A stretch of DNA of 64,000 bases, taken from the NCBI GenBank assembly GCA_028688015.1, contig JAQTZB010000002.1:248001-312000 (forward strand), read 5' to 3'. The notes beneath the pieces were generated by a model, which saw only the letters and a program-made list of their open reading frames with translations, was not told where the DNA came from and made no database searches. This stretch comes from Elusimicrobiales bacterium. Its GTDB lineage: Bacteria > Elusimicrobiota > Elusimicrobia > Elusimicrobiales > UBA9959. A program made the position numbers and the translations under genes. Each line of letters starts with the position of its first letter. The stretch's first letter is position 1. Shown here piece by piece: positions 41,941 through 63,273 of the stretch.

Positions 41941-43515
41941 TTGACTTCGACCGCGCAGCGCACGGACAAGATCCTTTTTCTGTCTTATTCCCCCGAGGCG
42001 GTCTCCCGCCTCAGGGACCTCGGGCAGCCGCTCTCGCTCATTGAGCGCGGCGGCGCTTCCGTTTTTACCCCCGGCTTCTCGGCCGGAGCGCCCGCCGTAC
42101 CCCCCTGCCTCCCCGGCAGCCTCGGCGACCCAGCCTTCCTCACCGCGCACGGCCTTAAATACGCCTATGTGGGCGGCTCCATGGCCAACGGCATCAGCTC
42201 GACGCTGCTGGCCGAGGCCTTCGGCAAGGCCGGGATGCTCGGTTTCTACGGCGCCGCCGGCCAGCCCCTCGAGGAAGTAGAAAAGGCGATAGACCGCCTC
42301 CAGGCCGCCGGAGAGTTCCCCCGCGGCTTCAACCTGATACACAGCCCTTCGGATCCGGCCCTCGAGGCTGCCCTCGTGGACCTCTATCTGCGCCGCGGCG
42401 TTCGCCTGCTGGAGGCCTCCGCCTTCATCGGCCTCACGCTGCCGCTGATCCGCTTCCGCACCGCCGGCATCCGGCGCGGCGCGAGCGGTAAGATAGAAAC
42501 CCCCAACCGCGTGATCGGCAAGATCTCCCGCGTGGAAGTGGCCGAGCGCTTCTTCTCCCCGCCCGAAGAGAAATTCCTGAAAGAGCTGGTGGCCCGCGGC
42601 GAGCTCACAACAGAGCAGGCCGAACTGGCCGCGCAGGTCCCCGTGGCGGAGGATGTCACCGCAGAAGGCGATTCCGGCGGCCACACCGACAACCGCCCGC
42701 TCGTGAACCTGCTGCCCACGATCATAGCCCTGAGAGACAGGATCCAGGCGCAGCGCGGCTACGCCGCGGCCCCGCGCGTGGGCGCCGGCGGCGGCATAGC
42801 TACGCCGGAGGCCGCAGCGGCGGCCTTCATGATGGGTGCGGCTTACGTGGTCACCGGCACCGTCAACCAGGCCTGCAGAGAATCCGGCACCACTGACCTG
42901 GTGCGCAACCTGCTCGCCGGCGCCGGCCAGGCCGATGTGGCCATGGCCGCGGCGGCCGACATGTTCGAGATGGGCGTGAAGGTGCAGATCCTCAAGCGCG
43001 GCACCATGTTCGCCATGCGCGCCAACAAGCTTTACGATTACTATCGGGCCTATAACAGCTTCGAAGAGATCCCCGCCGATATCCGCGCCGCGCTGGAGCG
43101 CGACTACTTCCGCAAAACTTTCTCCGAGGTCTGGGCCGGCACCCGCGAATTTTTCCTGCGCCGGGACCCGGCCCAGGCCGAGCGCGCCGAGCGCGACCCC
43201 AAGCACAAGCTGGCCCTGGTGTTCCGCTGGTACCTCAGCCAGAGCTCGCGCTGGCCGCTGGCCGGAGACGAGAGCCGCAAGCTGGACTACCAGGTCTGGT
43301 GCGGCCCGGCGATGGGCGCCTTCAACGAATGGGCCAAGGGCTCGTTCCTCGAGGTCCCTGAAAACCGCGACGCCGTCACGGTAGCCTGCAACCTGCTCGC
43401 CGGCGCCGCCGCGCTGACCCGCCTGCACGCGCTGCGCTGCCAGGGCGTGGCCGCCGACCCGCGGCTGGCCAGGCAGGAGCCCAGGCCCAGAGAAGAACTG
43501 GCCCGCTTTTTTTAA
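41941..43515 (+). CDS. pfaD: PfaD-like enoyl reductase of the PUFA/secondary-lipid synthase
   Basis: I place the start at the TTG at 41941 (MTSTAQRTDKILFLSYSPEA) because GGAG lies 6 bases upstream; a TTG at 41881 overlaps the promoter. The protein of about 524 residues has the NPD/FabK-like FMN barrel of PfaD: GLKYAYVGGSMANGIS near the N-terminus, PRVGAGGGIATPEAAAAAFMMGAAYVVTGTVNQ in the middle and the PfaD-specific C-terminus QILKRGTMFAMRANKLYDYYRAY. That C-terminus continues through KLDYQVWCGPAMGAFNEWAKGS. It reduces the enoyl intermediates on the synthase ACPs. It is the first gene of the cluster, as in the pfa1-pfa2-pfa3 order of myxobacteria. Confidence 0.93.
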   Translation: MTSTAQRTDKILFLSYSPEAVSRLRDLGQPLSLIERGGASVFTPGFSAGAPAVPPCLPGSLGDPAFLTAHGLKYAYVGGSMANGISSTLLAEAFGKAGMLGFYGAAGQPLEEVEKAIDRLQAAGEFPRGFNLIHSPSDPALEAALVDLYLRRGVRLLEASAFIGLTLPLIRFRTAGIRRGASGKIETPNRVIGKISRVEVAERFFSPPEEKFLKELVARGELTTEQAELAAQVPVAEDVTAEGDSGGHTDNRPLVNLLPTIIALRDRIQAQRGYAAAPRVGAGGGIATPEAAAAAFMMGAAYVVTGTVNQACRESGTTDLVRNLLAGAGQADVAMAAAADMFEMGVKVQILKRGTMFAMRANKLYDYYRAYNSFEEIPADIRAALERDYFRKTFSEVWAGTREFFLRRDPAQAERAERDPKHKLALVFRWYLSQSSRWPLAGDESRKLDYQVWCGPAMGAFNEWAKGSFLEVPENRDAVTVACNLLAGAAALTRLHALRCQGVAADPRLARQEPRPREELARFF

Positions 43516-43595
43516 CCGGCCGCAAGGTCCGGCAGCATAAACTCCGTAACGGGCAAAGCCCGGGGCCGCCGAAGGGCGCGCCCGAAGAGGACATA

Positions 43596-46500
43596 ATGAG
43601 CGCCAAGAAAGAAACCGCACAATCCCCCATCGCCATAGTGGGCATAGGCTGCCTTTTTCCCAAGGCCGAAAACGCCCGCCGCTTCTGGGCCAACATCAAG
43701 GGCGGAGTAGACGCCATAGGCGACGTGCCGGCCTCCCACTGGCTGCCCGAGGAACATTTCGACAAGAACCCCAAGCGGCCGGACATGACCTACGCCCGCC
43801 GCGGCGGCTTCATCCTGCCCGTGGATTTCGACCCGTCGGAGTTCGGCCTGGCGCCCAACGCGCTGGAGGCCACCGACAGCGCCCAGCTGCTGGGCCTGCT
43901 GACGGCCAAGATGGCCCTCGAGGACGCGGGCTACGGCCCCGGCCGCGATTTCGACCGCGGCCGCGTCAGCGTGATCCTCGGCGTCACCGGGGCGCTGGAG
44001 CTGGTCATCCCGCTCGGCGCCCGTTTGGGCCACCCGAAGTGGCGCAAGGCCCTCTCCGAGTTCGGCATCAGCGGCGCCGACGCCGAAGCCATAATTTCCC
44101 GCATGCAGGAAGACTATGTCCCGTGGCAGGAGAGTTCCTTCCCCGGCCTGCTGGGCAACGTGGTCAGCGGCCGCATAGCCAACCGCTTCAACCTCGGCGG
44201 CACCAACTGCGTGGTGGACGCGGCCTGCGGCAGTTCGCTGGGCGCCGTACACATGGCCACGCTGGAGCTGGCGGCCGGGCGCTCCTCGATGGTGGTCACC
44301 GGCGGCGTGGACTGCTTCAACGATATTTTCATGTACATGTGCTTCAGCAAGACGCCCGCGCTGTCCCCCTCCGGCGACGCGAAGTCTTTTGACGCCTCCG
44401 CCGACGGCACCGCCCTGGGCGAGGGCCTGGGCATGATGGTGATGAAGCGCCTCGAGGACGCCGTGAAGGACGGCGACAGGATCTACGCCGTGATCAAGGG
44501 CGTGGGCTCTTCCTCCGACGGCAAGGGCAAGGCCATCTACGCCCCGAGCTCCGAAGGCCAGGCCCGCGCGCTGCGCAACGCCTACGCCGCCGCCGGAGTG
44601 GAGCCCGGCACCGTAGAGCTGGCCGAGGCGCACGGCACCGGCACCACCGTCGGTGACGGCGTGGAGCTGGACGCCCTGACCGAGGTTTACCGCGAGAACC
44701 GCGCCGAAGGCGCCTGGTGCGCCCTCGGTTCGGTGAAGTCGATGATCGGTCACACCAAAGCCGCGGCCGGGTCGGCCGGCATGATAAAAGCCGCGCTGGC
44801 GCTGTACAACAAGACGCTTCCCCCGACCATCAAGGTCACCACGCCGCTCAAGAAGCTGGCCGAAGGGACTACCCCCTTCTACCTGAACACGGAGCTGCGG
44901 CCCTGGATAAAAAAGGAGCACCCGCGCCGCGCCGGCGTCTCCGCCCTGGGTTTCGGCGGCTCCAACTTCCACGCCGTCCTGGAGGAGCATTCCCCCGAAA
45001 AGCCGCAACCCGACTGGGACGGCGACGCGCAGTTGGCCGTGCTCTCCGGCAAGGACGCCGGAGAGATCAGGCAGGCTCTCGCCCCCTGGAAAGCGCTGAA
45101 CTGGGACGGCCTGCGCCTGGCCGCCATGCGCGCCCGCGCGGCCTTCCAGCCCGGCGCCCCCGCCCGCCTCGGCTTCGTCCTCGAGCACGGCCAGGATTGG
45201 AAGAAAGTCCTGGAATCCGCCCTGGCGAACCTGGACTCTCAGAAAGCCGCCTCTTGGGCCACGCCCGACGGCGTTTATTTCTCCTCGGCCGCTCCCGAAA
45301 AGCTGGCCGTACTGTTCCCCGGCCAGGGCGCGCAGTACCCTGGCATGCAGCGCGACCTCGCCTGCCGCTTTCCCGAGACCCTCGCCGTGCTGACCGAGGC
45401 CGACAAGGCCTTCGGCGGCGTGAAAGCGCTGTCAGACTATCTCTACCCCCGCGCCGCCTTCACCCCCGAGGCGAAGCAGCGCCAGGCCGATGACCTGAAA
45501 GACACCTCCGTGGCCCAGCCCGCCCTCGGCGCCGCCGAACTGGGCGCGTGGCGCGCGCTGGCCGCCTTCGGCCTGAAGCCCGCGGCCTTCGCCGGCCACA
45601 GCTACGGCGAACTGACAGCTCTCTGCGCCGCCGGGGCTTACGGCGACGCTGATTTATTCTCCCTCTCCAAGCTGCGCGGCGCCCTGATGGCCGCAGGCTC
45701 CGGCGACCGCGGCGGCATGCTGGCCGTGCAGGCCCCGCTGGCCGAAGTAGAAAAAGCCGTGAAAGAAGAAAAGTTGGACCTGATCATCGCCAACAAGAAC
45801 ACGCCGTCGCAGTTCGTGCTGTCCGGAGCCACGCCCGAGATAAAGCGCGCCGCCGAGCGCCTGACCGCGCGCGGCCTCAAGAACACGCCCCTGCAGGTTT
45901 CGGCGGCCTTCCACAGCCCGCTGGTCGCGGGCGCGCAGAAAGAATTCTCCGCCGCCCTGGGCAAGGTGAAGTTCGCCAAGCCGCAGACGACCGTCTACGC
46001 CAACAAGACCGCGGCCGCGTACCCGGACTCCGCCGACAAGGCCCGTGACCTGCTGGCCTCCCAGCTGGCTTCGCCCGTGGAATTCACCGCGATGATAGAG
46101 AAGATGCACGCAGACGGCATAAGAATATTCCTCGAAGTGGGCCCCGGCGCCCGCCTCACCGGCATGGCGTCGGCCATCCTGGCCGGCAAAGAGCACACGG
46201 CCTTCGCCCTCGACGCCTCTGCCGGCAAGAAGAACGGCGTGGCCGACCTGGCCCGCGCCCTGGCGCGCCTCGCCGCCCTCGGCTGCGGCCTCGACCTGGC
46301 CGGCTGGGAAGGCGGAGCTGACGGCGCCAAAGACGCCGACAGGAAGATCTCCAAACTGGCCGTTAAACTGACCGGCGCTAATTATCGCTCCCCGCGGCCG
46401 GCCGCCCCGGCCCCGAAGCGCCAACTCACGCTGGCCCCCGCCGCGCAGCAGGCGCAGTACGCGCCCGCCGCGCCTGCGCCGCAGGGTTACGCCTCTGAGG

Positions 46501-49500
46501 CCCTGCGCATTACGCAGGAGAGCATGGCCGCCCTGCAGAAGCTGCAGGAGCAGACCGCCCTGCTGCACGCCCGCTTTCTCGAAGGACAGGAGGCCGCCCA
46601 GCGGTCCTTCCAGGCCCTGGTAGACCAGCAGCAGCAGCTCTTCACCGGAGCGCCGGCCGCGGCCCCTGTTTTCCAGGCCCCGGCTTTCGCCGCCCCGGCG
46701 CCCCGCCCAGCAGCGGCCCCGCAGCCTGCCCCGGCCCCCGCTCTGCAGCCGGCCGGCGCCGGCGTCGAGAAAGTCCTGCTCGCCATTGTCTCGTCGCAGA
46801 CCGGCTATCCCGCCGAGTCGCTGAACCCTGACATGGACATGGAGTCCGACCTCGGCATAGATTCCATCAAGCGCGTGGCCATTCTCTCCGAACTGCAGGA
46901 AAAGCTCCCCGGCGCGCCGCGCATCACCCCTGAACAGTTGGGCTCTATCCGCACGCTGCGCCAGGTCTCGGCCTATCTCTCCGCCGGTATGCCAGCGGTG
47001 GCCGCCGCACCGGTTCAGCAGACCGCCGGAGACGGCGTTGAGAAAGTCCTGCTTTCCATAGTCTCCTCTCAGACCGGTTACCCGGCCGAATCGCTGAACC
47101 CCGACATGGACATGGAATCGGACCTCGGCATCGATTCCATCAAGCGCGTGGCCATTCTCTCAGAGCTGCAGGAAAAGCTTCCCGGCGCGCCGCGCATCAC
47201 GCCGGAGCAGCTGGGCTCCATCCGCACGCTGCGCCAGGTGACTGCCTACCTGTCCGCCGGTATGCCTGCAACGCCCGCTCTGGCCCCCGCGCCGGCCGCA
47301 GGCCAGGATGTTTCTAAAGTCCTGCTCTCCATTGTCTCCGCCCAGACCGGCTATCCCGCCGAATCCCTGAATCCCGACATGGACATGGAATCGGACCTCG
47401 GTATCGATTCCATCAAGCGCGTGGCCATACTCTCCGAACTGCAGGAGAAGCTCCCGTCAGCGCCGCGCATCACTCCGGAGCAACTCGGCTCCATCCGCAC
47501 GCTGCGCCAGGTCACGGCCTATCTCTCCGCCGGCATGCCGGCAACTGCCGCTCCGGCCGCGGCCGCCGTCGGACAGGATGTTTCCGAAGTCCTGCTCGCC
47601 ATTGTTTCCGTACAGACCGGCTACCCCGCCGAGTCGCTCAACCCCGACATGGACATGGAGTCCGACCTCGGCATAGATTCCATCAAGCGCGTGGCCATAC
47701 TCTCCGAACTGCAGGAAAAGCTCCCCGGCGCCCCGCGCATCACGCCGGAGCAGCTGGGCTCCATCCGCACGCTGCGCCAGGTGACGGCTTACCTTAACGC
47801 CGGCGCTTCCCCGGCCCCCGCCACCCCCGCCCCCGCTTCAGCGCCCGCGGCAAGGGCCGTCGAGACCGAGATCGTCCGCGAAGTGCTCAAGACGGCCGAG
47901 CTGGACCCGGCCGCCGCCAGGAAACATGTGGCGCTCGACAAGAAATTCCCCATCTGGGTAACCGACGACGGCTCGGCGCTGGCCGCGGCCGTGGTCAAGA
48001 ACCTGGAAGAGCGCGGCTACAAGGCGCGCAAAGTCTCCCTGGACGGCTCCGCGCCCGCCGCTGACGGCCTGGCCGCCCTGGTCCTCCTCGCCCCGGCGGC
48101 GAAACTGGGCAAGAAAGACTATTGGAGCGCCTCGTCGGAGCTCTTCCTGAAGCAGGCCTTCCGCCTGGTCCGGGCCGCCGGCCCCGCGCTGAAAGCCGCC
48201 GGCAAAATTTCCGGCGCCTCCCTGATGACGGTCTCGCGCCTCGACGGGGCTTTCGGCATGTCCGGCCTGAAGTCGGAGCAGGACCCCGTTTTCGGCGGCC
48301 TGGCCGGCCTGGCCAAGACCGCGGGCCACGAATGGCCCGAGGTTTCCTGCCGCGCCGTGGACGCGGCCGCCGACTGGAGCCACACCGTCTCAGTAGCGCA
48401 GGCCCTGACCGACGAACTGTTCTTCAGCGGCCCCGCCGAACTCGGCCTCTCCGAGACCGGCGGCAAGGTAGTGCTGTTGAGCCGCTCCGAACAGGCCAAG
48501 GGCGAAAAGTTCCCGCTGGCCAAGGGCGACGTAGTGCTGATCACCGGCGGGGCGCGCGGCGTCACCGCCGAAGCCGCGGCCGCGCTGGCCGCCTCCTGCG
48601 GGGCCACGCTGGCCGTGCTGGGCCGCAGCCCGCTGCCGGCCGCCGAAGAGGCCTGGCTCGCTCCTTGCCGCACTGAGGCAGACATAAAGAAAACACTAAT
48701 CGTCCGCACTCCCGGCCTGGCGCCCAAAGCCGCCGGCGAGCAGTGCCGCAATATCCTGGCCGCCCGCGAGATCCGCGCCCAGCTCAACCGCTTCGAGGCG
48801 GCCGGCTCGCGCGCAGCCTATTATTCCGCCGACATCCGCGACGCCGCGGCCGTAAAGACCGCGCTGGGCAGGATCGTAAGGGACCTGGGCCCGGTGCGCG
48901 GCCTGGTGCACGGCGCCGGCGTGCTGGCCGACAAGTTCATCCTCGACAAGACCGACGCGCAGTTCGACTCGGTCTTCGACACCAAGGTGGGCGGCCTGCG
49001 CAACCTGCTGGAGGCGCTCGACGCCTCCAAACTGAAGGCCGTGGCGCTCTACTCCTCTTCCACCGCGCGCTTCGGCCGCGCCGGCCAGTGCGACTACGCC
49101 ATGGCCAACGAAGTACTGAACAAGACGGCTCGTCTGCTGGCCCGCCGCCTGCCCGACTGCCGCGTGTCCTCGCTCAACTGGGGCCCGTGGGACGGCGGCA
49201 TGGTCAACGACGGGCTCAAGGCCCTGTTCGCCAAGGAAGGCGTCGGCGTGATAGGCCTGGAGGAAGGCGGCAAATTCCTGGTGAACGAGCTCTCCCTCGA
49301 GAACGGCCCCGCCGAAGTGGTGGTGGTGGCCCGCCCGAAGGCCGCGGCGGTGGCGCCGGCCTCCGGCGGCGCGCTCTCCCGCGCCTTCGACTTGCCGGTC
49401 TCCGTGGCCGACTGCCCCTTCCTGCGCTCGCACGTCATCAACGGCAAGGCCGTGGTGCCGACGGCCGTGATGACCGAATGGCTGGCCCACGCCGCGCTGC

Positions 49501-53200: not shown

Positions 53201-56200
53201 AAGACAGCCCCCGAAAAGCCGCTGTTCCGCGACCGGCTCTATTATTCCCCCGCCGGCCAGGCCCGCCCGGAGAACCTCGCTTTCGTTTTCCCCGGCTCGG
53301 GCAACCAGTACATCGGCATGGGCCGCGGCCTCTGGACCCAGTGGCCCGAGATCGTCCGCCGGCTCGACGCCGAGAACGGCTACCTGCGCGGCCAGATGGT
53401 GCCGGAGCTCTTCGCCCCGTGGCGCCTCACTTGGGAGGACGGCTGGCGAGAGCAGACCGAGCTGCGCATCGTCGACGACTACAAATCCATGATCTTCGGC
53501 TCGGTGGCGCACGGCACCGCCGTCAGCGACCTGGTGCGCGCGCTGGGCGTGCAGCCGGCCTTCGTGATCGGCTACAGCCTGGGCGAGACCGCCGGGCTCT
53601 TCGCCCTGCGCGCCTGGACCGCCCGCGACGAGATGCTGCGCCGCATCAACGAGTCCAGCCTTTTCGTCAGCGATCTGGCCGGCCCCTGCGACGCCGCGCG
53701 CCGCTTCTGGAATCTGCCCAAGGACGAGAAGGCCGACTGGGTGCTGGGCGTGATAGACCGCCCCGCCGAGACGGTGCGGCTGGCTCTCAAAGGCGCCGAG
53801 CGCGCCGCGCTGCTGATAGTGAACGCGCCGCTGGAATGCGTGGTGGGCGGCTACCGCAAGGCGGTGGCTTCGCTGGTGGAAGGCATGGGCTGCGTGTTCC
53901 TGCCGCTGCAGGGCGTGTCCACCGTGCATTTCGCGGCCGCGAAGCTCGTGGAGAAGCAGTACCGCGACCTGCACCTCTTCCCCACCAAGGCGCCGCAGGG
54001 CGTGAAATTTTACAGCGGGGCCTGGAAGCGGGCCTACGAGGTCACCCGCGAGAACGCGGCCGACTCCATAGTGTCGCAGGCCATCCACAGCCTGGACTTC
54101 CCCTCGCTGGTGCGCCGCGCCTACGAGGACGGCGCGCGCGTGTTCGTCGAACTCGGGCCGCAGTCCTCGTGCACGCGCATGATAGACAAGATCCTCGGCG
54201 CGCAGCCTCACGTCGCGCGGCCGGCCTGTGTTAAGAACCAGGACGAGGCCGGCACCGTACTGCGCCTGCTGGCCCGCCTGCTGGCGGAGCGCGCCCCAGT
54301 AGATCTGGCCGCCCTGTACGGCCAGGACTCCCGCGCGGCCGGCCACCAGGACCTGCCGGCGGAAAAGAACAAGGTTTACGCCGCTCTCTCCGCCCCCGCG
54401 CCTACGCTTCTCGACTGGCGCCCCGGCGCGCCGCTGACGCCGGTGGCCCCGGCGCCTGTTATTACCGCTCCTCCCGCCGCCAGGGCGCCGCAGCCCGCGG
54501 CCTTGCCCGCCGCGCCCTTTGCACCGGCAGCTCTGCCGCCGGCCGCCGCTCCGACCGGCCAGGGGCCGGCCTACCTGCGGAATTTCGCCGCAGCCAACGA
54601 CGCCAAGGCCAGGGCGCATGAAGTTTTCCTGCGGCTTTCCTCCAATTTCAACGCGCTGCAGTCCAGGAACATCGCTTTCCAGGGAGCCCTGGTGCAGGCC
54701 CTGGGCGGGGGCGCCGTTCTGCCGGCGCCGGCCGCTCAGCCCCAGCCTCCGGCGGTAAACCCGCCGCCGGCGGCGCCGCAGCTTAAACTCTCCGGCAGCA
54801 CTACTCCGCAAAAAGTCTTCATGAACCGCGAACAGTGCATGGAGTTCGCCGTTGGCTCCATTGCCAAGGTGCTGGGCGCCAAATTCGCCGCCGCCGACAC
54901 CTATCCCACCCGCGTGCGCCTGCCCGACACACCGCTGATGCTGGTGGATCGCATACTCAGCGTGAAGGGCGAACCGGGCTCCATGACCTCGGGTAATGTG
55001 GTGACGGAACACGATATTCATCCGGGCGCCTGGTATTTGGACTGCGGCCGCATCCCCACCTGCATCGCCGTAGAAGCCGGCCAGGCCGACCTCTTCCTGT
55101 GCGGCTACCTCGGCATCGACGACCGCACTAAGGGCAAGGCCATGTACCGCCTGCTCGACGCCGAGGTCACCTTCCACCGCGGCCTGCCGGGACCGGGCCA
55201 GGTCATTCACTACGACATCAATATCGAGCGCTTCGCCCGGAACGGCGACATCTGGCTATTCTTCTTCAATTACGAAAGCACCGTCGACGGGCAGCCCCTG
55301 CTCAGCATGAAAAAAGGCTGCGCAGGGTTCTTCACCCAGGAGGAGCTCTCCAAGGGCAAGGGCGTGGTGCTGACCGCCGAAGAGCAGGCCCCCGCCCCCG
55401 GCAAAGCTCCCGCCGGCTGGAAGCCGCCCGCGCCTTTCACGGCAGAAAAAGAAACCTACTCAGACGCGCAGCTTGAAGCGCTGCGCCGCGGCGACTATCC
55501 CGGCTGCTTCGGGCCCGCTTTCGCCAACCTCCCCCTCTCCAAGCCGGTAGGCCTGCCTTCCGGCAAGATGCGCCTGGTAGACCGCATACTGGAGCTCTCC
55601 CCGCGCGGCGGCCGCTACGGACTGGGCCTGGTGCAGGGCGAGATGGACATCCACCCCGACGACTGGCACCTGGTCTGCCATTTCTCCGACGACCATGTGA
55701 TGCCCGGCACGCTGATGTACGAGTGCTGCCTGCACACCTTCCGCGTCCTGCTGCTGCGCCTCGGCTGGACCGCGGAGGAAAGCGCCTGCTGGTACGAGCC
55801 GGTGCCCGGAGTGACCAGCCGCCTCGAGTGCCGCGGCCAGGTGCTGCCTTCGACCAGGAAGGCCATGTACGAGATCATAGTCAAGGAAATAGGCTACCAG
55901 CCCGACGGCACCCCCTACGCCATAGCCGATGCCTTCATGTACGCCGACGGCAAGCGCATCATCCATATCCACAACATGTCCATCCGCATGGGCGGGGTCA
56001 AGAAAGACGCGATAGAGGCCCTCTGGAGCGCATCCGCCGCCCCGGCTGACTTCGGCCCGCGCGCGGCCCTCTTTGACAATGCCAGCATCACGGCCTTCGC
56101 CGTGGGCAAGCCCTCCGAAGCCTTCGGCGACAAGTACAGGATCTTCGACGAAGGGCGCGTCATTGCCCGCCTGCCCGGCGACCCCTACAAATTTTTGGAC

Positions 56201-57145
56201 CGCGTAGTTAAAATAGAGAATTGCCGCCAGTGGGAACTGAAAGCCGGCGGCTACATAGAGGCTGAATACGACGTGCCGCCCTGCGAGTGGTACTTCAAGT
56301 CCGGCGCCCAGAAGTCCATGCCCTTCGCCGTGCTGCTGGAAGTGGCCCTGCAGCCCTGCGGCTGGCTGGCCGCCTATTTGGGCAGCGCCCTCACCAGCGA
56401 AACAGACCTCTCCTTCCGCAACCTCGGCGGCACAGCCGTCCAGTACGCCGAGGTCATGCCCGACGCCGGCATCCTAGTGACAAAAGTAAAGATCACCAAA
56501 GTGTCCCAGTCCGGCGGCATGATAATCCAGGACTACGACATGGAAGTCCTGTGCAAAGGGCGCACCGTCTACAAAGGCGTCACCCAGTTCGGCTTCTTCT
56601 CCAAGAAGTCCCTGTCCGAACAGCTGGGCGTGCGGAGTGCCGCCCGCTACTCCCCTTCCGCCGCCGAGCTCGCCCAGGCCGAGCCCCTGGAACTTTCAGC
56701 CGCGCCCGGCCTGCCGGACGAAAAGCTCATCATGCTCGACTCCGTGGAAACCTATCTGCCCGCCGGCGGCCCCAAGCAGCTCGGCTTCCTCCGCGGCCTC
56801 AAGGCGGTAGACACCACAGAGTGGTTCTTCAAAGCCCATTTCTACCAGGACCCAGTCTGCCCCGGCTCGCTGGGCCTCGAGTCCTTCATCAACTTGATGA
56901 AAGCCGCAGCCCGCAAGCGCTGGCCCGCCCTCCCCGCGACCGCCCGCTTCGAAGCCCTGGCCCTAAACGCCAAACATACCTGGATCTACCGCGGCCAGAT
57001 CGCCCCCAAAAACAGATCAATAACCGTAGAGGCGTATATAACCTCGGTCGACGATGCGACCAAGACTCTAAAGGCCGACGGCTTCCTGATAGTAGACAAC
57101 TTGGTCATCTACCAAATGAAAGATTTCGCGGTAAGAGTAGTTTAG
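50210..57145 (+). CDS. pfaC: PfaC-like synthase with internal PfaB-like acyltransferase: KS-CLF-AT-DH-DH
   Basis: The start ATG at 50210 shares a base with the pfaA stop (TGATG). The protein of about 2311 residues contains a ketosynthase (about 1-420, Cys191 in LDAACASS); a chain-length-factor-like KS (about 465-830) where the active cysteine is replaced by Glu650 (SSGETSG); and an acyltransferase (about 1025-1400, FPGSGNQY and Ser1123 in GYSLGE). An Ala/Pro linker follows, then FabA-like hotdog domains from about 1540 to the end. Of four hotdog lobes, two carry the active-site histidine (His1824 in CHFSDDHVMPG, His2210 in AHFYQDPVCPG) and two lack it (DIHPGAWYL, EWYFKSGAQ). No C-terminal AGPAT domain is present. 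The fused AT replaces a separate pfaB. Confidence 0.93.
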   Translation: MKDEPIAIVGAGGIFPGAPDLPAFWSNISGGICSSKEVPPGRWALPGAEAFDPQKGAPDKVYSLKACFVENFKLDPAGLDLRQNFLERLDPVFHLALHAARQAFHDAGPQKIDRARTGLVIGNIVLPTDSVSALAFETLLPAFEKAALGKQLTQFKTKTDPLNRCPAGLPAGVLAKALGLGGGGFTLDAACASSLYAVKLAVDALRSGRADAMLTGGVSRPASLYTQMGFSQLRALSPSGRPSPFDAAADGLVVGEGAGMFVLKRLSDAVRAGDRIYGVITGIGLSNDIGGSLLAPNTAGQLYAMRAAYKQSGLSPSQVDYIECHATGTPTGDPIEVESLRTLWGERGWSEGQCALGSVKSNIGHLLTAAGSAGLMKMLLAFQHKTLPPTANFTKPGPKVRLAGSPFRVPAAAADWAQRDGKTPRRAALSAFGFGGINAHVLVEEYTSSYAPAVKIAPPAPPAPVAIVGLEARFGALAGLRQFQEAALGTAAGSAADLPGERLRGLPPPKKGFYLKEVGVPSDAYRIPPRELEEMLPQQLLMLDTAAKAIADSGGALQNAGVFIGLELDQNTTNFHFRWALAATAKKYAAEKGWKLSGAEEKALLGALREKAGPALSANRTMGALGGIVASRIAREFHVGGPSYTISSGETSGLRALETAVRALRAGELDTALVGAVCLDGDPRALSAAGELRPYADQAKPFDVSAAGTAQGEGAAALVLKRLDDAVRDGDRVYAVIKGLGFAAGGGVDAPAPSPQAYTAALREAYAEAQVDPSTVSYLETHGSGIPAEDETEAQALTDFYGVSAAPLPCALGSVKPVIGHTGPACGLAGVVKTALALYQEILPPLAKVNPLAALAGAKKRFHIPPEPQYWLRNRAEGPRRAGVSALGPDGNCGHVVLEGLEAQAGDRQLAERRQPLGARNEALFCVEDDDARGLISGLQDLQAWLGGKDQDENIEKLARAWFARSGARPEKKRACVLLARGAAELDALCSEAAAALKTAPEKPLFRDRLYYSPAGQARPENLAFVFPGSGNQYIGMGRGLWTQWPEIVRRLDAENGYLRGQMVPELFAPWRLTWEDGWREQTELRIVDDYKSMIFGSVAHGTAVSDLVRALGVQPAFVIGYSLGETAGLFALRAWTARDEMLRRINESSLFVSDLAGPCDAARRFWNLPKDEKADWVLGVIDRPAETVRLALKGAERAALLIVNAPLECVVGGYRKAVASLVEGMGCVFLPLQGVSTVHFAAAKLVEKQYRDLHLFPTKAPQGVKFYSGAWKRAYEVTRENAADSIVSQAIHSLDFPSLVRRAYEDGARVFVELGPQSSCTRMIDKILGAQPHVARPACVKNQDEAGTVLRLLARLLAERAPVDLAALYGQDSRAAGHQDLPAEKNKVYAALSAPAPTLLDWRPGAPLTPVAPAPVITAPPAARAPQPAALPAAPFAPAALPPAAAPTGQGPAYLRNFAAANDAKARAHEVFLRLSSNFNALQSRNIAFQGALVQALGGGAVLPAPAAQPQPPAVNPPPAAPQLKLSGSTTPQKVFMNREQCMEFAVGSIAKVLGAKFAAADTYPTRVRLPDTPLMLVDRILSVKGEPGSMTSGNVVTEHDIHPGAWYLDCGRIPTCIAVEAGQADLFLCGYLGIDDRTKGKAMYRLLDAEVTFHRGLPGPGQVIHYDINIERFARNGDIWLFFFNYESTVDGQPLLSMKKGCAGFFTQEELSKGKGVVLTAEEQAPAPGKAPAGWKPPAPFTAEKETYSDAQLEALRRGDYPGCFGPAFANLPLSKPVGLPSGKMRLVDRILELSPRGGRYGLGLVQGEMDIHPDDWHLVCHFSDDHVMPGTLMYECCLHTFRVLLLRLGWTAEESACWYEPVPGVTSRLECRGQVLPSTRKAMYEIIVKEIGYQPDGTPYAIADAFMYADGKRIIHIHNMSIRMGGVKKDAIEALWSASAAPADFGPRAALFDNASITAFAVGKPSEAFGDKYRIFDEGRVIARLPGDPYKFLDRVVKIENCRQWELKAGGYIEAEYDVPPCEWYFKSGAQKSMPFAVLLEVALQPCGWLAAYLGSALTSETDLSFRNLGGTAVQYAEVMPDAGILVTKVKITKVSQSGGMIIQDYDMEVLCKGRTVYKGVTQFGFFSKKSLSEQLGVRSAARYSPSAAELAQAEPLELSAAPGLPDEKLIMLDSVETYLPAGGPKQLGFLRGLKAVDTTEWFFKAHFYQDPVCPGSLGLESFINLMKAAARKRWPALPATARFEALALNAKHTWIYRGQIAPKNRSITVEAYITSVDDATKTLKADGFLIVDNLVIYQMKDFAVRVV

Positions 57146-57179
57146 CGCCGTTTCGTTTTAGCCGGCCCCGGGTTTGACG

Positions 57180-57290
57180 GGCGGCCGGGTTAGCAAAACC
57201 TTCATGAGCCCGACGCTTGCATAGCGCGGAGGGCGAATGATGAGGGAGGCCACGGTGTGGCCGACCGCGTTTTGCGTTCCGGCCGACCGG
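57180..57290 (+). repeat. Structured dispersed repeat, copy 2, between pfaC and oleA
   Basis: This is the second copy of the element at 21966. The core GTTAGCAAAACCTTC...GAGCCCGACGCTTGC and CGCGTTTTGCGTTCC are conserved. Stems are kept with changed pairs: outer CGGGCGGCCGG/CCGGCCGACCG, inner GCAAAAC (57193-57199)/GTTTTGC (57269-57275) and the hairpin GGCCAC-GGT-GTGGCC (57248-57262). It lies about 40 bases after the pfaC stop and about 28 before the oleA start, in the same orientation as copy 1. Confidence 0.8.
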
Positions 57291-57318
57291 CGAACACGGC
57301 AATTGAGCGGACTATTTA

Positions 57319-58329
57319 ATGAAATACACCAAAGTCTTCGTCAACGCCATCGGCTACGAGCTCGGCCCCAATGTCGTCACCTCGTCAGAGCTCGAAAAAC
57401 GCGTAGAGCCCATGCTCACCGCCCTCCACGTCCCCCTCGGCCAGCTTGAGGCCCTCACCGGCATCCGCGAGCGGCGCTGGTGGGACCCCGGCTTCGAACT
57501 CTCCGAAGGCGCCGCCCGCGCCGCCCGCAAAGCCCTCGACCAGGCCGGCCTCAAACCCGCCGACCTCGGCGTCCTCATCTACGCCGGCGTCTGCCGCGAA
57601 CACAGCGAGCCCGCCACCGCCACCGCCATCGCCGATAAAATAGGCGTCTCCCCCTCCGCCGCCGTCTACGACATCTCCAACGCCTGCCTCGGCGTCCTCA
57701 ACGGCATGCTCGACATAGCCAACCGCATAGAGCTCGGCCAGATCAAAGCCGGCCTCGTAGTCTCCTGCGAATCCTCCCGCGAGATAAACGACGCCATGAT
57801 AGCCCACATGCTCGCCAACAGGAATTTCGAGACCTTCCGCCTGTCGCTCGCCACCCTCACCGGCGGCTCCGGCGCCGTGGCCGTGCTGCTAACCGATGGC
57901 TCTTTCGGCGCCGGCCACCGTCTGCTCGGCGGCGTCTACCGTGCCGCCCCGGCCCACCACAAGCTCTGCATCTGGCACCGCGACCACATGTCCACCGACG
58001 CCACCGCCGTCCTCAAGCACGGCGTGGCCCTGGGGAAGGAGACCTGGGCCGACCTCATGGCCGCCCTAGCCCTGACCCCAGCGCAGGTGGATAAAGTAAT
58101 CTGCCACCAGGTGGGCGGCGCTCACAAGAAGACCGTGCTCGAAGCCCTGGGGCTCCCCGAGGAAAAAGATTTTTCCACTTACGAATACCTGGGCAACATG
58201 GGCACCGCCGCCCTGCCGACGGCCGCCGCCATCGCCTCGGAGCGCGATTTCCTCGCCCCCGGCGACACCGTCGGTTTCCTGGGCATCGGCAGCGGCCTCA
58301 ACACGATAATGCTGGCCCTCAAGTGGTGA
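57319..58329 (+). CDS. oleA: OleA: acyl-CoA head-to-head condensing thiolase-like enzyme
   Basis: This 336-residue thiolase-superfamily protein aligns by eye along its length with OleA rather than FabH. It has GIRERRWWD near the N-terminus and CREHSEPATA with the general-base glutamate (Glu97). The nucleophile Cys123 is in DISNACLGVLNGM, His263 in CHQVGG, Asn293 in LGNMG, and the C-terminus is GIGSGLNTIMLALKW. OleA performs Claisen condensation of two fatty acyl-CoAs to a beta-keto acid. A possible GAGCGG site lies 8 bases before the ATG. It lies 173 bases after pfaC with the structured repeat in between. Its first 175 codons use CTC for leucine almost exclusively, unlike pfaA. Confidence 0.93.
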   Translation: MKYTKVFVNAIGYELGPNVVTSSELEKRVEPMLTALHVPLGQLEALTGIRERRWWDPGFELSEGAARAARKALDQAGLKPADLGVLIYAGVCREHSEPATATAIADKIGVSPSAAVYDISNACLGVLNGMLDIANRIELGQIKAGLVVSCESSREINDAMIAHMLANRNFETFRLSLATLTGGSGAVAVLLTDGSFGAGHRLLGGVYRAAPAHHKLCIWHRDHMSTDATAVLKHGVALGKETWADLMAALALTPAQVDKVICHQVGGAHKKTVLEALGLPEEKDFSTYEYLGNMGTAALPTAAAIASERDFLAPGDTVGFLGIGSGLNTIMLALKW

Positions 58330-58340
58330 CAAGGACAACG

Positions 58341-59240
58341 ATGAACGACTATCTCCCCGAAGGCGTGACCAAAGAGCTCTATCCCTTTACCGGCAAGTAC
58401 CACACTACTGCCAGCGGCGCCAAACTGCATTACCTCGACGAAGGCTCCGGCCGCCCCATCGTGATGCTGCACGGCAACCCCACTTGGTCCTTCTACTTCC
58501 GCAACCTGGTGACCGCCCTGCGCGGCACTAACCGCGTGATAGTGCCCGACCATATCGGCTGCGGTCTCTCCGAGAAGCCCGGCGACGACAAGTACGATTA
58601 CACGCTCAAGAGCCGCGCCGACGACATAGAAGGCCTGCTCGAGAGCCTCGGTATCAAAGAAGATGTCACGCTGGTGCTGCACGACTGGGGCGGCATGATA
58701 GGCATGACCTGGGCCGCCCGCCACCCGGAGCGAGTCAAGCGCCTGGTGCTGCTCAACACCGGGGCCTTCTTCCTGCCCCCCGCGAAAGGCTTCCCGCCCG
58801 CCATGTGGCTCGCCCGCACCGCCCTCGGTACCCTGCTGGTGCGCGGCTTCAACGCCTTCGCCGCCATCTCCGCCCATGTCTGCGTCACCCGCCGGGCGCT
58901 CACCCCCGAACTGCGCCGCGCCTACACCGCCCCCTACAACAACTGGGCCAACCGCATAGCCACGCTGCGCTTCGTGCAGGACGTGCCGACGCGCCCCGGA
59001 GACAAGGCCTTCGAGCAGGTGGACATCACCCAGCGCAAGCTGGGCCTGTTCGCGGAGAAGCCCGCGCTGCTCTGCTGGGGCCTGAAGGATTTTATCTTCG
59101 ACCAACACTTCCTCGACACCTGGAAGCGCTACCTGCCGAAGGCCGAGGTCCATACCTTCTCCGACGCCGGCCATTACATCCTGGAAGACGCGGCCGAGGA
59201 CGTCATACCGCTGGTAAAAAAGTTTATCGACAATGCCTGA
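58341..59240 (+). CDS. oleB: OleB: alpha/beta hydrolase, beta-lactone decarboxylase
   Basis: The ATG at 58341 follows AAGGA by five bases; an upstream GTG overlapping oleA is weaker. This 299-residue alpha/beta hydrolase is of the haloalkane-dehalogenase-like type: the oxyanion motif is MLHGNPTWSF, the nucleophile Asp115 is in LHDWGG, and the catalytic His278 is in DAGHYILED. The known OleB (Xanthomonas campestris) has Asp114 and His277 in the same places. OleB converts the cis beta-lactone made by OleC to a cis-olefin and CO2. On its own it could be annotated as a dehalogenase, but its place between oleA and oleC settles the call. It overlaps oleC by eight bases. Confidence 0.92.
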   Translation: MNDYLPEGVTKELYPFTGKYHTTASGAKLHYLDEGSGRPIVMLHGNPTWSFYFRNLVTALRGTNRVIVPDHIGCGLSEKPGDDKYDYTLKSRADDIEGLLESLGIKEDVTLVLHDWGGMIGMTWAARHPERVKRLVLLNTGAFFLPPAKGFPPAMWLARTALGTLLVRGFNAFAAISAHVCVTRRALTPELRRAYTAPYNNWANRIATLRFVQDVPTRPGDKAFEQVDITQRKLGLFAEKPALLCWGLKDFIFDQHFLDTWKRYLPKAEVHTFSDAGHYILEDAAEDVIPLVKKFIDNA

Positions 59241-60837
59241 GAACATCTCCGCGCTTCTGACGCAGCTCGCGGCGGCCCTGCCTGACCGCCCCGCCGTCAT
59301 TGCCGGAGGGAGAACCGCAACCTTTGGGGAACTGGAAGCCGAAATCACGCAACTGGCCTCTGGACTTTCAGCCGCCGGGATAAAGCCCGGCATGCGGGTG
59401 GCGCTGATGGTGCCGCCGTCTGTGGAATTCGCCGCGCTGACCTTCTCCCTGTTCCGCGCCGGCGCGGTGGTGGTGCTGATAGACCCCGGCATAGGCATAC
59501 CGGCCATGAAGACCTGCCTCGCCGAGGCCCGCCCGGAGGTTTTCATCGGCGTGCCCAAAGCCCAGGCGGCCCGCGTGCTGCTGCGCTGGGCGAAAGACTC
59601 GGTAAAAACTGTCATCACCGTCGGCCCGCGCCTGTTCTGGGGCGGCCTGACGCTGGATGAAGTGCGGAGCATGGCCAGAGCCGGAACTCCGCCGCCGGTT
59701 GCCGGCGAGACCGCCGCGATACTCTTTACCTCGGGCAGCACCGGCGTCCCGAAGGGCGCGGTCTACACCCACGCCATGTTCGCCGCCCAGGCGGAGATGC
59801 TGAGGGATTATTTCCATATCGAACCCGGCTTCTATTCCGTCCCCACCTTCCCCCTCTTCGCCCTGTTCGACCTGGCCCTCGGCCTCACCATAGTCCTCCC
59901 CGAAATGGATTTCACCCGCCCGGCCGCCGTAGACCCGGCCATGCTCGCGGGCCTCCTCGACAAGTACGGGGCCGTGCAGCTCTTCGGCTCGCCGGCCCTG
60001 CTGGACACGCTGGGCCGCTACGGCGAGCGCACCGGAGCGCGCCTGGACACGCTACGGCGCGTCCTCTCCTGCGGCGCCCCGGTTTCCGACGCCGTGATAG
60101 CGCGCATCGGAAAAATGATCCCCGCCGGCACTCAGGTCTATACCCCTTACGGCGCCACCGAGGCACTGCCGGTGGCCTGCATCACCGGCGGTGAGCGCGC
60201 CGCCCTGCCGCGCGGCCTCGGCGTCTGCGTGGGCCGGCCCTGGCCCGGCGTAGAGGCCCGGGTAATAAAGATCTCCGACGAACCCATAGCCGCCTGGTCG
60301 GACTCGCTGCTCCTGCCCGACGGCGAGATCGGGGAGTTCGCGGTCAAAGGCCCCACCGTCTCCGCGGAATATTACGGCCGCGGGGGCAGCACGGCGCTGG
60401 CCAAGATCCGCTGCGCCGACGGGGAGATCTATCACCGTATGGGCGACTGCGGCTGGAAGGACGCCGAGGGCCGCATCTGGTTCTGCGGCCGCAAGAGCCA
60501 CCGCGTTACGGCTGCAGAAGACACTCTTTTCACCATCCCCTGCGAGGCAGTCTTCAACGCCCACCCGCAGGTGCGCCGCACGGCCTTGGTCGGCGCCGGC
60601 CCCGCAGGCCGCCAGCTGCCGGTGCTCTTTGTCGAATTGGAGAAAGGCGCCCGCGGCGGCGCCGAGCTGACGGAAGAGCTGCTGCGGCTGGGTGCGGCCC
60701 ACGCGCATACCAAAAGCATAAAGACCATCTTCTACCACCCGGCCTTCCCGGTGGATATCCGGCACAACGCCAAGATCTCGCGCGAAAAACTGGCGGAGCT
60801 GGCGGCGGAGAAGCTCGGCGCGGGGGTGCCCGCGTGA
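59233..60837 (+). CDS. oleC: OleC: beta-lactone synthetase (AMP-ligase fold)
   Basis: This 534-residue protein of the ANL adenylate-forming superfamily has the ATP loop LFTSGSTGVPKGAVYTH (about 164-180). A YTPYGATEALPVA motif follows and, near the C-terminus, MGDCGWKDAEGRIWFCGRKSHRV, the hinge region seen in OleC, plus a final lysine-bearing segment (RHNAKISREKLA). OleC uses ATP to close the beta-hydroxy acid from OleD to a beta-lactone. Start overlaps the oleB stop by eight bases and the end overlaps oleD by four. A general fatty acyl-CoA ligase is the alternative, but the operon context favours OleC. Confidence 0.92.
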   Translation: MPENISALLTQLAAALPDRPAVIAGGRTATFGELEAEITQLASGLSAAGIKPGMRVALMVPPSVEFAALTFSLFRAGAVVVLIDPGIGIPAMKTCLAEARPEVFIGVPKAQAARVLLRWAKDSVKTVITVGPRLFWGGLTLDEVRSMARAGTPPPVAGETAAILFTSGSTGVPKGAVYTHAMFAAQAEMLRDYFHIEPGFYSVPTFPLFALFDLALGLTIVLPEMDFTRPAAVDPAMLAGLLDKYGAVQLFGSPALLDTLGRYGERTGARLDTLRRVLSCGAPVSDAVIARIGKMIPAGTQVYTPYGATEALPVACITGGERAALPRGLGVCVGRPWPGVEARVIKISDEPIAAWSDSLLLPDGEIGEFAVKGPTVSAEYYGRGGSTALAKIRCADGEIYHRMGDCGWKDAEGRIWFCGRKSHRVTAAEDTLFTIPCEAVFNAHPQVRRTALVGAGPAGRQLPVLFVELEKGARGGAELTEELLRLGAAHAHTKSIKTIFYHPAFPVDIRHNAKISREKLAELAAEKLGAGVPA

Positions 60838-61832
60838 AGGCGCTCGTCACCGGCGGCGGCGGCTTCCTCGGCGGGGCCATAGTGAAACTGCTGCTTGCCA
60901 ACGGCGTTTCCGTGCGGAACTTTTCCAGGGGAGAGTACCCGGAGCTGCGCGCCCTCGGGGTGGAATGCCTGCGCGGCGACCTGGCCGACGCTGACGCGGC
61001 CTCCGCGGCCTGCCGCGGCTGCGACACGGTCTTCCACGCCGCCGCCAAGGTAGACATGCTGGGCAGCCGCGAAGATTTCCACCGGACCAACGTGGCGGGG
61101 ACCCAGGCGCTGCTCAAAGGCGCCCGCGCAGCCGGGGTGGCGCGCTTCGTCTTCACCGGCTCGCCCAGCGTGGTCTTCAACGGTGCCGACGTGGAAGGCT
61201 GGGACGAGCGCGCCCCGTACCCCAAGCGCTTCGACTCGCCCTACTCAGAGACCAAGGCCCTGGCCGAGCAGCTGGTCCTTAACGCCAACGGCCCCGCCTT
61301 CTCCACTGTCTCGCTGCGTCCCCATCTGGTCTGGGGTCCCGGCGCCAACCACATAGTCTCCAACATCGTCGACAGCGGCCGCGCCAAAAAGCTTTTCCGC
61401 ATAGGCGAGCACAACAAGCTCGTCGACACCACCTACATAGCCGACGCCGCGCGGGCCCATTGGCTGGCGGCGCAGCGGCTGGCCCCGGGCGCGCCCTGCG
61501 CCGGCAAAGCGTATTTCGTCTCGCAGGGCGACCCGCGCCCCAACTGGGATATAATCAACCTGATCCTGTCGGCCGCAGGCCTGGCGCCGGTGACCAAGGT
61601 CCTGTCCTACCCTGCCGCCTATGCGGCGGCGCTGGCGCTGGAGACCTCGTGGCGGCTGGCCCGCTTCAGCGACGAGCCGCCTATCAACCGCTTCGTCCTC
61701 AAGCAGCTCACCACCGCGCACTGGTTCGACATCTCCGCCGCGCGGCGCGACCTGGGCTACGCCCCCTCCGTCACCATAGAGCAAGGCATTGAGAAATTAA
61801 AAGTTTGGTTCGACAGCAACGGCGGGAACTAG
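60834..61832 (+). CDS. oleD: OleD: NADPH-dependent 2-alkyl-3-oxoalkanoate reductase
   Basis: This 332-residue extended short-chain dehydrogenase starts at a GTG overlapping oleC by four bases. The Rossmann motif is VTGGGGFLGGAIV, followed by the DVVFH-like step FHAAAKVDM. The catalytic tyrosine and lysine are Tyr137 and Lys141 in SPYSETKALAEQ, as in OleD and 3-beta-HSD families, and FTGSPSVVFNG carries the serine. OleD reduces the beta-keto acid produced by OleA. It is the last gene of the ole block; its TAG stop shares the palindrome CTAG with the convergent tlyA stop. Confidence 0.92.
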   Translation: MKALVTGGGGFLGGAIVKLLLANGVSVRNFSRGEYPELRALGVECLRGDLADADAASAACRGCDTVFHAAAKVDMLGSREDFHRTNVAGTQALLKGARAAGVARFVFTGSPSVVFNGADVEGWDERAPYPKRFDSPYSETKALAEQLVLNANGPAFSTVSLRPHLVWGPGANHIVSNIVDSGRAKKLFRIGEHNKLVDTTYIADAARAHWLAAQRLAPGAPCAGKAYFVSQGDPRPNWDIINLILSAAGLAPVTKVLSYPAAYAAALALETSWRLARFSDEPPINRFVLKQLTTAHWFDISAARRDLGYAPSVTIEQGIEKLKVWFDSNGGN

Positions 61833-62563
61833 CGGGACTTCAGCAGCCAGAGGAACTCCAGGTTGCCTTTGGCGCCCTTTATCGGCGAGTCTATCAGCCC
61901 TTCTTCTTTTACCCCGGGCAAATTATCCTTCAGGAAGGCGCGCATGCCGTCCATCACTCCCAGGCGCGTCGCCTCGTCCTTCACTATGCCCTTGCGCAGA
62001 TCGGCGGCCTGCAGTTCGAACTGCGGCTTGACCAGCGCTATCACCCGCCCGCCCGGCGCCATGGCGCCGAAGACCGGGCCGAGGATCAGTTTCAGGGAAA
62101 TAAAGGAAACGTCGATGGCGCAGAGCCGCGGCTTCTCGGGGAACAGCTCCGGCTTCAGGAAGCGCGCGTTGGTCTGCGGCAGGAAGACCACGCGGGGATC
62201 GCTCTTGATCCGCTCGTGGATCTGCCCCTCCCCCACGTCCACGGCATAGACCAGCTTAGCCCCGGCCTGCAGGAAGCAGTCGGTGAAGCCGCCGGTGGCC
62301 ACGCCGACGTCCAGGCAAGCCAGCCCGGCGGGATCCAGCTTGAACGCGTCCAGCGCCCCTTTCAGTTTCAGCCCGCCGCGCGAGACATAAGGGCAGTCGC
62401 TCTTAACCAGTTCGACCAGGTCGTCCTCGCGCACGGCCTGCCCGGCCTTGTCGGCCGGCCGGCCGTTGACCGTCACCAGCCCGGCCATGATGGCGCGCAG
62501 GGCCTTCTCGCGGCTTTCGAACAGCCCGCGCTCCACGCACGCTACGTCGAGGCGCATCTTCAT
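61829..62563 (-). CDS. tlyA: TlyA-family RNA methyltransferase (S4 plus FtsJ-like)
   Basis: This 244-residue protein has the N-terminal S4 RNA-binding domain (RLDVACVERGLFESREKALRAIMAGLVTVNG) and then the linker YVSRGGLKLKGAL typical of TlyA. An FtsJ-like AdoMet domain follows with CLDVGVATGGFTDCFLQAGA and the catalytic K-D-K elements (RLCAIDVSFISL, ALVKPQFE). TlyA methylates rRNA 2'-hydroxyls and is also annotated as hemolysin A. Its gene ends head-on with oleD, the two stop codons sharing CTAG. It is preceded on the minus strand by a terminator at 62583-62613, so it needs its own promoter. Confidence 0.93.
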   Translation of the reverse strand: MKMRLDVACVERGLFESREKALRAIMAGLVTVNGRPADKAGQAVREDDLVELVKSDCPYVSRGGLKLKGALDAFKLDPAGLACLDVGVATGGFTDCFLQAGAKLVYAVDVGEGQIHERIKSDPRVVFLPQTNARFLKPELFPEKPRLCAIDVSFISLKLILGPVFGAMAPGGRVIALVKPQFELQAADLRKGIVKDEATRLGVMDGMRAFLKDNLPGVKEEGLIDSPIKGAKGNLEFLWLLKSR

Positions 62564-62582
62564 GCTGATATGTTACAAAATA

Positions 62583-62613
62583 AAAAAGGGCCCCCCCATA
62601 AAGGGCCCTTTTT
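62583..62613 (-). terminator. Intrinsic terminator downstream of the DUF2267-like gene
   Basis: AAGGGCCC (62586-62593) pairs with GGGCCCTT (62603-62610), flanked by an A-run and TTTTT. It is positioned 16 bases beyond the stop of the gene at 62629 on the minus strand. Confidence 0.88.
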
Positions 62614-62628
62614 CCGCCGCGCAGCGGC

Positions 62629-63273
62629 CTAGCGCTGGCGCGGGGCGGCCGTGCCCCAGAGCTCCCGAAGGCGCTCGGGGAAGTTGCGGCGCACGTCGTT
62701 CATCTCCCCGCGCGAGATATGCCGCTCCAGCACGCGCAGCACGCCGTTGGTGACGCGCAGCGGGTCCTCTCCGGCCGGCAGCTGCGCCGCTACCCGGTCC
62801 AGGAACTCGTCCGCGTTCTTTATCCTCTCCGGCTTATGCGCCGGCGTCCAGCCGGAATAGTACATGCCCATGATCAGCACCGGCATCTGCGCGGCGAACT
62901 CGGCGCACTCTTCCACCGGCAGCCGGTCGCGCATGGCGTGCAGCACGGCGCGCAGCGCCCGGTAGGCCTCGTTGAGGTTGGTGTAGTCCATCTCGGCCTG
63001 CACGTCCTGCAGCCAGGCGCGGGTCTTGGACAGCGCCTTGTCGAACAAGTGCGCGTTAGAGGCCTCGGTGACGGTGTCTGGCCAGGCGGCCGTTATCCTT
63101 TCGGCCTCCTGCCAGTCGCACTGCGCCGTGCCGGGCTTGCCCGAGCGGTGCTCCCAGATAGAGTGCGCCACCTGCCGCGTAGCCTCCTCCAGGTTGCCGC
63201 TCTTGAGGTAGTTGGCGTAAGCCTCGGTATAGGCGTGCCTGGCTACCACCGTAGTCCTGTTATTTTTGTTCAT
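62629..63273 (-). CDS. DUF2934-like plus DUF2267-like protein
   Basis: This 214-residue soluble protein has no signal peptide. The N-terminal third contains a DUF2934-like segment (VAHSIWEHRSGKPGTAQCDWQEAERI). The remainder matches the DUF2267 pattern: TNLNEAYRALRAVLHAMRDRLP, then EFAAQMPVLIMGMYYSGWTP and a second helical pair DPLRVTNGVLRVLERHISRGE..DVRRNFPERLRELW. Both domains occur in stress-related or regulatory proteins without known biochemical function. It has its own terminator and appears monocistronic. Confidence 0.72.
   Translation of the reverse strand: MNKNNRTTVVARHAYTEAYANYLKSGNLEEATRQVAHSIWEHRSGKPGTAQCDWQEAERITAAWPDTVTEASNAHLFDKALSKTRAWLQDVQAEMDYTNLNEAYRALRAVLHAMRDRLPVEECAEFAAQMPVLIMGMYYSGWTPAHKPERIKNADEFLDRVAAQLPAGEDPLRVTNGVLRVLERHISRGEMNDVRRNFPERLRELWGTAAPRQR

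Follow-up and report, generated by a model that had tools for sequence, protein, structure and literature searches.

Does a bacterium in which genes for a polyunsaturated fatty acid (Pfa) synthase lie next to a complete set of olefin-forming ole genes use the one system to feed the other? The question is raised by the pfa-ole locus at positions 41941–61832 of a 64,000-nucleotide stretch, here called the window (contig C40, positions 248001–312000), from an Elusimicrobiota metagenome-assembled genome of 3.34 Mb in 58 contigs. Seven intact genes on the + strand are found there in the order pfaD, pfaA, pfaC (with an inserted acyltransferase, AT), oleA, oleB, oleC and oleD, and their sequences, together with analogy to studied systems, make it very likely that they form one metabolic unit, a Pfa-fed pathway to a polyene hydrocarbon. 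The hydrocarbon is probably the main product, and by analogy it would be C31:9, towards which we lean slightly, or a close relative. The original prediction hinted that the linkage might be new, which it is not: both Shulse and Allen in 2011 (PMC3098273) and Allemann in 2019 (PMC6463001) have printed it, so the block is of an already known type. What is added here is the host phylum and a rule that ties one type of OleA to PfaD.

The intact open reading frames (ORFs) and their family matches bear out the predicted run of same-strand genes with overlaps or short gaps. The enoyl reductase gene pfaD (41941..43515) starts at TTG 41941 behind a GGAG, within an ORF that opens at TTG 41881, and its product scores 615 bits against TIGR02814, above the cut-off of 449. 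Eighty nucleotides further on, pfaA (43596..50210) encodes a KS-MAT-ACPx4-KR-DH protein (Pfam KS, AT, four PP-binding, KR and PS-DH matches) that exceeds the TIGR02813 cut-off of 1010 with 1670 bits; its ketosynthase (KS) cysteine is C211, and each of its four near-identical acyl carrier protein (ACP) domains contains GIDSI. pfaC (50210..57145, in an ORF that opens at TTG 50207) overlaps pfaA, with its start at TTG 50207 or ATG 50210, and has the order KS-CLF-AT-DH-DH, with two KS-type domains (KS and the chain-length factor, CLF), an AT region and four FabA-type stretches by Pfam. The KS cysteine is residue 192 counted from the TTG and 191 from the ATG, so that the KS cysteines and ACP serines named in the original prediction are in place; further features are a glutamate near the KS-cysteine position of the CLF, two dehydratase sites of FabA type, and GYSLGE as the motif of the AT. 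The AT region is PfaB-like, with a TIGR02816 score (84 bits) below the cut-off of 144, and the nearest solved chain to PfaC is 6riw 'ORF10' (E 6e-129). In a PfaC alignment of 56 rows, the window included, the KS cysteine is kept in 55 (with one gap), the CLF glutamate in 54, and the AT serine and both dehydratase His/Asp pairs in all 56. A dead AT domain as the sign of a hydrocarbon-only synthase is thereby ruled out. Counting ACPs in relatives by a strict motif gave 0 to 4 in 18 loci, and these counts were not used because so strict a motif misses copies and because assemblies tend to break in this region; the repeat region of pfaA spans about 46760–47800, and in relatives contig ends are frequent near the expected place of such repeats.

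The ole half is compact, with overlaps of 7 nt between oleA and oleB, 8 nt between oleB and oleC, and 4 nt between oleC and oleD. OleA (57319..58329), the head-to-head condensing thiolase, scores 471 bits against NF006720 (cut-off 285), matches the solved chain 3row (E 2e-51), and has its nearest named relatives in Elusimicrobia bacteria GWD2_63_28 (94% identity) and GWC2_64_44 (93%). Its C123, E97, H263 and N293, which we take to be the Cys, Glu, His and Asn of a head-to-head thiolase, are kept in 90 of 90 aligned rows, window included. oleB (58323..59240; Abhydrolase_1) encodes an alpha/beta-hydrolase-type β-lactone decarboxylase starting at GTG 58323 or ATG 58341; its Asp121, His284 and Asn52, numbered from the GTG, are kept in 87/87 rows, window included, and the first two are the predicted Asp115 and His278 when counted from the ATG. 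Y137 and K141 of OleD (60834..61832; 3Beta_HSD), the 2-alkyl-3-oxoalkanoate reductase, are kept in 68/68 rows, again with the window among them, and all the Ole residues named beforehand are thus present. OleC (59233..60837), the AMP-binding β-lactone synthetase (AMP-binding E 4e-60), scores 605 bits against the NCBI olefin β-lactone synthetase model NF045786, and OleD 389 bits against NF042422, both strong but below the equivalog cut-offs of 900 and 580. The names of these models point to Xanthomonas and Shewanella types, and from the sequences the low scores read as divergence, not loss of function. OleA signature columns were not used as evidence on the substrate pocket, because the comparison behind them had a single Xanthomonas sequence, and planctomycete homologues with no oleBCD match nearby.

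One argument for coupling is that the two systems occur together. At E <= 1e-40 the genome of the window encodes a single OleA and a single PfaD, and a search of plasmids for OleA at E 1e-20 gave no match. Among 340 Elusimicrobiota genomes, OleA is found in 60 and PfaD in 58, with both in 54, neither in 276 and one only in 10 (Fisher p 8e-51, a value that overstates independence because the genomes are related). None of the ten is a clear exception: in four of the six with OleA only (G181, G183, G186, G213) pfaC does lie upstream, the contig being short, and the other two (G180, G232) are cut by contig ends, while the four with PfaD only are 73–78% complete and either end inside pfaA (G145, G187) or have PfaD adjoining the contig start on the minus strand (G118, G205). 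The genes could be placed in 51 of the 54 genomes with both, PfaD being in pieces in G197, G206 and G208. OleA and PfaD share a contig in 25 of the 51, always on the same strand and 12.7–16.2 kb apart; in each of the 26 two-contig pairs at least one contig end lies less than 12 kb from the gene on its partner's side (by hand arithmetic). For 15 of the two-contig pairs, the contig with pfaD stops 2.9–4.6 kb past the gene, roughly at the expected place of the ACP repeats of pfaA, which makes an assembly break the likely cause.

A similar picture is seen in 244 Desulfuromonadia genomes drawn from a larger group, in which OleA occurs in 148, PfaD in 152 and both in 142 (the OleA scores of G405 and G558 are much lower). 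A check of five of the six genomes with OleA only found pfaC upstream in G517, G541, G560 and G562 and none in the 4.6 kb available in G584. Among the matches listed, 137 genomes have both genes; these share a contig in 88, of which 85 have them within 30 kb on one strand, and the remaining 49 pairs are on two contigs. Chance linkage is rejected on the Elusimicrobiota and Desulfuromonadia data.

Planctomycetes separate co-occurrence from linkage. In 120 genomes drawn from the order of one planctomycete locus (L077), OleA profile scores fall into two sets, 572–613 bits in 22 genomes and 284–395 bits in 93, with no OleA in five. PfaD is present in 25 genomes: all 22 of those with high-scoring OleA, two of the 93 with low-scoring OleA (G661, G710), and one that lacks OleA (G684). 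pfaC lies just upstream of oleA in nine of the 22 and is missing from the preceding ~9–10 kb in twelve, the contig of G672 being too short to tell. pfaD is more than 1 Mb from oleA in G607, G612, G617 and G643, with pfaC adjoining oleA in the first three and not in G643. Since co-occurrence holds with the genes this far apart, the tie between OleA and PfaD is not mere linkage. A quick tree places 16 Pfa-associated OleA proteins in a single group (97% SH-aLRT), to which neither the low-scoring homologues nor Xanthomonas campestris OleA belong, the Xanthomonas side being a single long-branched row. Fourteen of the 93 low-scoring homologues (L156–L169, 40–44% identical to the window's OleA) were read, and none had an oleB, oleC or oleD match nearby (the contig of L164 starts at the gene), so these may not be functional OleA. 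Two further planctomycete loci, L178 (G661) and L179 (G684), contain a pfaD-pfaA stretch without the Pfa-associated OleA type, and because that type is missing there another product is likely.

The order of the genes is also conserved to a degree that is more than chance, recurring in many genomes, as the original prediction had allowed. Our loci were the window, 78 from named genomes with the nearest OleA (a sample that therefore leans towards close OleA), and 20 additional stretches, six of which were discarded as copies. The 5' end of oleA is held by 90 loci, and the 3' end of pfaC lies upstream on the same strand in 76. As to the other 14, L082 has pfaC after all; L053, L076 and L077 have 10 kb of upstream room and no pfaC; L037, L040, L042, L043 and L079 have none in 3–7 kb; and five have 1.3 kb or less. 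Spacing in the 76 is at most 20 nt in 20, 21–250 nt in 36, 251–600 nt in seven and over 600 nt in 13. In the Elusimicrobiota genome G234, pfaC and oleA are about 6 kb apart. The pfaC stop and oleA start overlap by 4 nt in 16 of the 76 (12 Elusimicrobiota, one Acidobacteriota and three Gemmatimonadota). In 16 relatives we read the ORFs that precede oleA, including those that separate it from pfaC. One of ~461 aa, possibly oxidoreductase-like by a motif, recurs upstream of oleA in five Desulfuromusa-type loci (L034, L047, L051, L053, L058), and the others look lineage-specific. In the window, a pattern scan found nothing resembling a sigma-70-type promoter or a terminator in the gap between pfaC and oleA (57146..57318), which is weak evidence either way. 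The scan covered 56900–62700 and gave one promoter-like match (0.5 in shuffles) and seven terminator-like matches (4.6 in shuffles), the sole + strand terminator-like match being inside oleD.

The two halves do not share a single history. FastTree trees of PfaC and of OleABC for 52 loci agree in recovering five single groups: Desulfuromonadales, Gemmatimonadota, Acidobacteria, planctomycetes and the family of the window. The Elusimicrobiota outside that family do not hold together, since either tree puts L069 and L098 away from the main group of the phylum and amid long branches; transfer between phyla is thus possible, though not demonstrated. Closer to home, the window, L003 and L004 are 82–86% identical to L017 in PfaA (over ~910–950 C-terminal residues) and PfaC, and 77% in OleA, 67–68% in OleB, 72% in OleC and 68–69% in OleD; L017 and L019, by contrast, share 91% in OleA, 74% in PfaA and 81% in PfaC. 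In approximately unbiased (AU) tests the ole data reject a grouping of the window trio with L017 (p 0.0004), and the grouping favoured by ole is in turn rejected by pfaC (p 0.0007 and 0.0018), p values that are optimistic because the groups were named after the trees had been seen. In a DNA alignment of 54718–61832 the trio stands separate from oleA onward, and the break is placed only approximately because the 3' part of pfaC is similarly close whichever pair is compared. The simplest reading of these sequences would be an exchange of one half within the window's family with the gene order kept, an order common to the loci either side of this exchange. The pfa and ole halves would then behave like swappable modules in the window's genus.

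We infer the chemistry, the hand-over from the ACPs and the product from characterised relatives. The tandem ACPs, probably armed by a phosphopantetheinyl transferase (PPTase) encoded elsewhere, would carry a polyunsaturated acyl chain made by PfaA, PfaC and PfaD; OleA would accept a pair of these chains, most likely directly from the ACPs, and join them head to head, OleD would reduce, OleC would close the β-lactone, and OleB would remove CO2 to give a long polyene olefin. Allemann (2019) has OleA linking the two pathways and drawing on the Pfa synthase, with a 31:8 ketone formed by OleA plus Pfa in Escherichia coli, in a fadD mutant too, and a predicted precursor of 16:4n-3 (PMC6463001). Geobacter bemidjiensis makes C31:9, and a Type I pfa cluster was suggested to supply the pathway (PMC3098273). 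As for the PPTase, PF01648 matches two genes of this genome, on C49 and C51, one of which adjoins a second Pfa-like synthase (L101, on C51) and could serve both synthases. L101 (G000:C51:222500–242000) is Type R-like: its parts are two KS, an AT, a KR, a DH and a weakly matching ACP, and the synthase reading frame is split between 4718–10486 and 2383–5022; it also holds the PPTase and a carbamoyltransferase-like gene.

How far the Pfa synthase is given over to the hydrocarbon is less certain than the coupling itself. Co-occurrence, conserved order, the stop-start overlap in relatives and the PfaD-associated OleA type uphold the coupled pathway of the original prediction; of its claim that the pathway is dedicated, we would say that the sequences favour it, and go no further. 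The synthase could instead make polyunsaturated fatty acids for phospholipids while OleABCD diverts an intermediate, as in Shewanella pealeana, a serious possibility although probably not the case here. According to PMC6463001, S. pealeana is positive for both eicosapentaenoic acid (EPA) and polyunsaturated hydrocarbon (PUHC), OleA lowers EPA in E. coli, and S. oneidensis MR-1, listed as EPA-negative in the strain table, loses EPA fourfold on pfaT deletion and so makes some. The invariant AT serine of PfaC also means that the transfer step may still work. Nevertheless, no Elusimicrobiota genome clearly holds pfa without ole, the four PfaD-only genomes all being incomplete, with contigs that end inside pfaA or beside PfaD.

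Two other accounts seem to us far less probable. If OleABCD used chains from type II fatty acid synthesis (FAS-II), as Xanthomonas olefins do according to PMC6463001, and the Pfa product had another fate, the linkage would reflect shared transfer, and the differing histories recorded by the AU tests fit such an arrangement. It is nonetheless very unlikely given co-occurrence in three samples, even where the genes are unlinked, the 4-nt pfaC/oleA overlaps in relatives, and the same gene order on either side of the inferred exchange. A weak late Ole step would leave a polyene ketone or β-lactone, and both the sub-cut-off OleC and OleD scores and the ketone formed by OleA without OleBCD (PMC6463001) are compatible with that; we consider it improbable, as the catalytic residues of OleB and OleD are kept in every row aligned, and oleB, oleC and oleD overlap oleA and each other.

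Several observations weigh against a Pfa-fed pathway, or against its generality. The window's own pfaC and oleA do not overlap and are 173 nt apart, and its ole half has a history different from that of its pfa half, so that the two are not one indivisible unit. No PPTase lies in direct proximity, both PF01648 matches in the genome being off contig C40, whereas a PPTase is 'most often' directly near pfa in Type I and other clusters (PMC3098273), although such proximity is not strictly required. Neither the seven genes nor those of their neighbours that were scanned gave a thioesterase family match, and no pfaT-like gene was seen in the block, no search of the window or genome with a PfaT sequence having been made. 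PfaD is found without the Pfa-associated OleA type in three of the 25 PfaD-bearing planctomycetes, and ten Desulfuromonadia genomes gave a PfaD match without an OleA match. Linkage fails in 12 of the 21 planctomycetes with enough contig, is absent in an Oligoflexales genome (L076/G348) and in L053, and in G408, G410 and G487 of the Desulfuromonadia OleA and PfaD are over 100 kb apart with no pfaC in the 9 kb before oleA. A Pfa synthase is also not the only route to C31:9: Desulfotalea psychrophila produces C31:8 and C31:9 and, according to a reviewer's summary, lacks the polyketide route (PMC2649909).

The block extends the predicted synthesis of long polyene hydrocarbons to the Elusimicrobiota, and a loose co-occurrence is sharpened to a testable rule, that the OleA type predicts a Pfa synthase. 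The Pfa-associated OleA type may serve as a marker for makers of polyene hydrocarbons in six phyla or more, a proposal that we hold tentatively and a little short of even confidence; if true, these would be the Elusimicrobiota, Thermodesulfobacteriota, Acidobacteriota, Planctomycetota, Gemmatimonadota and Bdellovibrionota, including lineages for which we found no lipid data. Long polyene hydrocarbons serve as lipid markers, and further sources therefore matter for how such markers are read.

Elsewhere in the window there are signs of a type IX secretion-like system at 15625–21012 (+), 35015–36256 (-) and 36148–37530 (-). They include a 1795-aa SprA-like protein (TIGR04189 E 3e-37, below cut-off), a PorV/PorQ-family protein (NF033709, above cut-off) and another with a weak C-terminal FlgD_ig-like match. 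A 2244-aa Gly/Ala-rich protein with a signal-like start (27449–34183, -) has no Pfam match above cut-off and one weak NCBIfam match far below cut-off, and an Rfam scan of the window gave no match at gathering scores.

The block can be set against four known systems. Elusimicrobium minutum, of the same phylum, has a Type R system (PMC3098273), which consists of one pfaA homologue and a PPTase without the pfaC-pfaD-ole block; it too is a Pfa-like synthase, resembling L101 in the window's genome. Xanthomonas campestris OleABCD comprises the same four enzymes, and the window's OleA matches 3row, but the X. campestris pathway is fed by FAS-II chains and its OleA lies outside the Pfa-associated group. 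Shewanella and Photobacterium profundum SS9 have the same two pathways as the window, joined by OleA, and pfa and ole are adjacent in SS9; by PMC6463001, pfaT (orf6) sits between the SS9 operons and the strain is listed as PUHC-negative (SS9R), whereas in the window the AT is fused into pfaC. A search of the open-licence literature turned up no report of pfa-ole in Elusimicrobiota. The fourth system is the Type I clusters of Shulse and Allen, described for Deltaproteobacteria and one planctomycete, with a pfaBC fusion and ole genes "often linked" (PMC3098273): the window is from another phylum, but it has in common with them the pfaBC fusion, the Pfa homologues and the linkage to ole.

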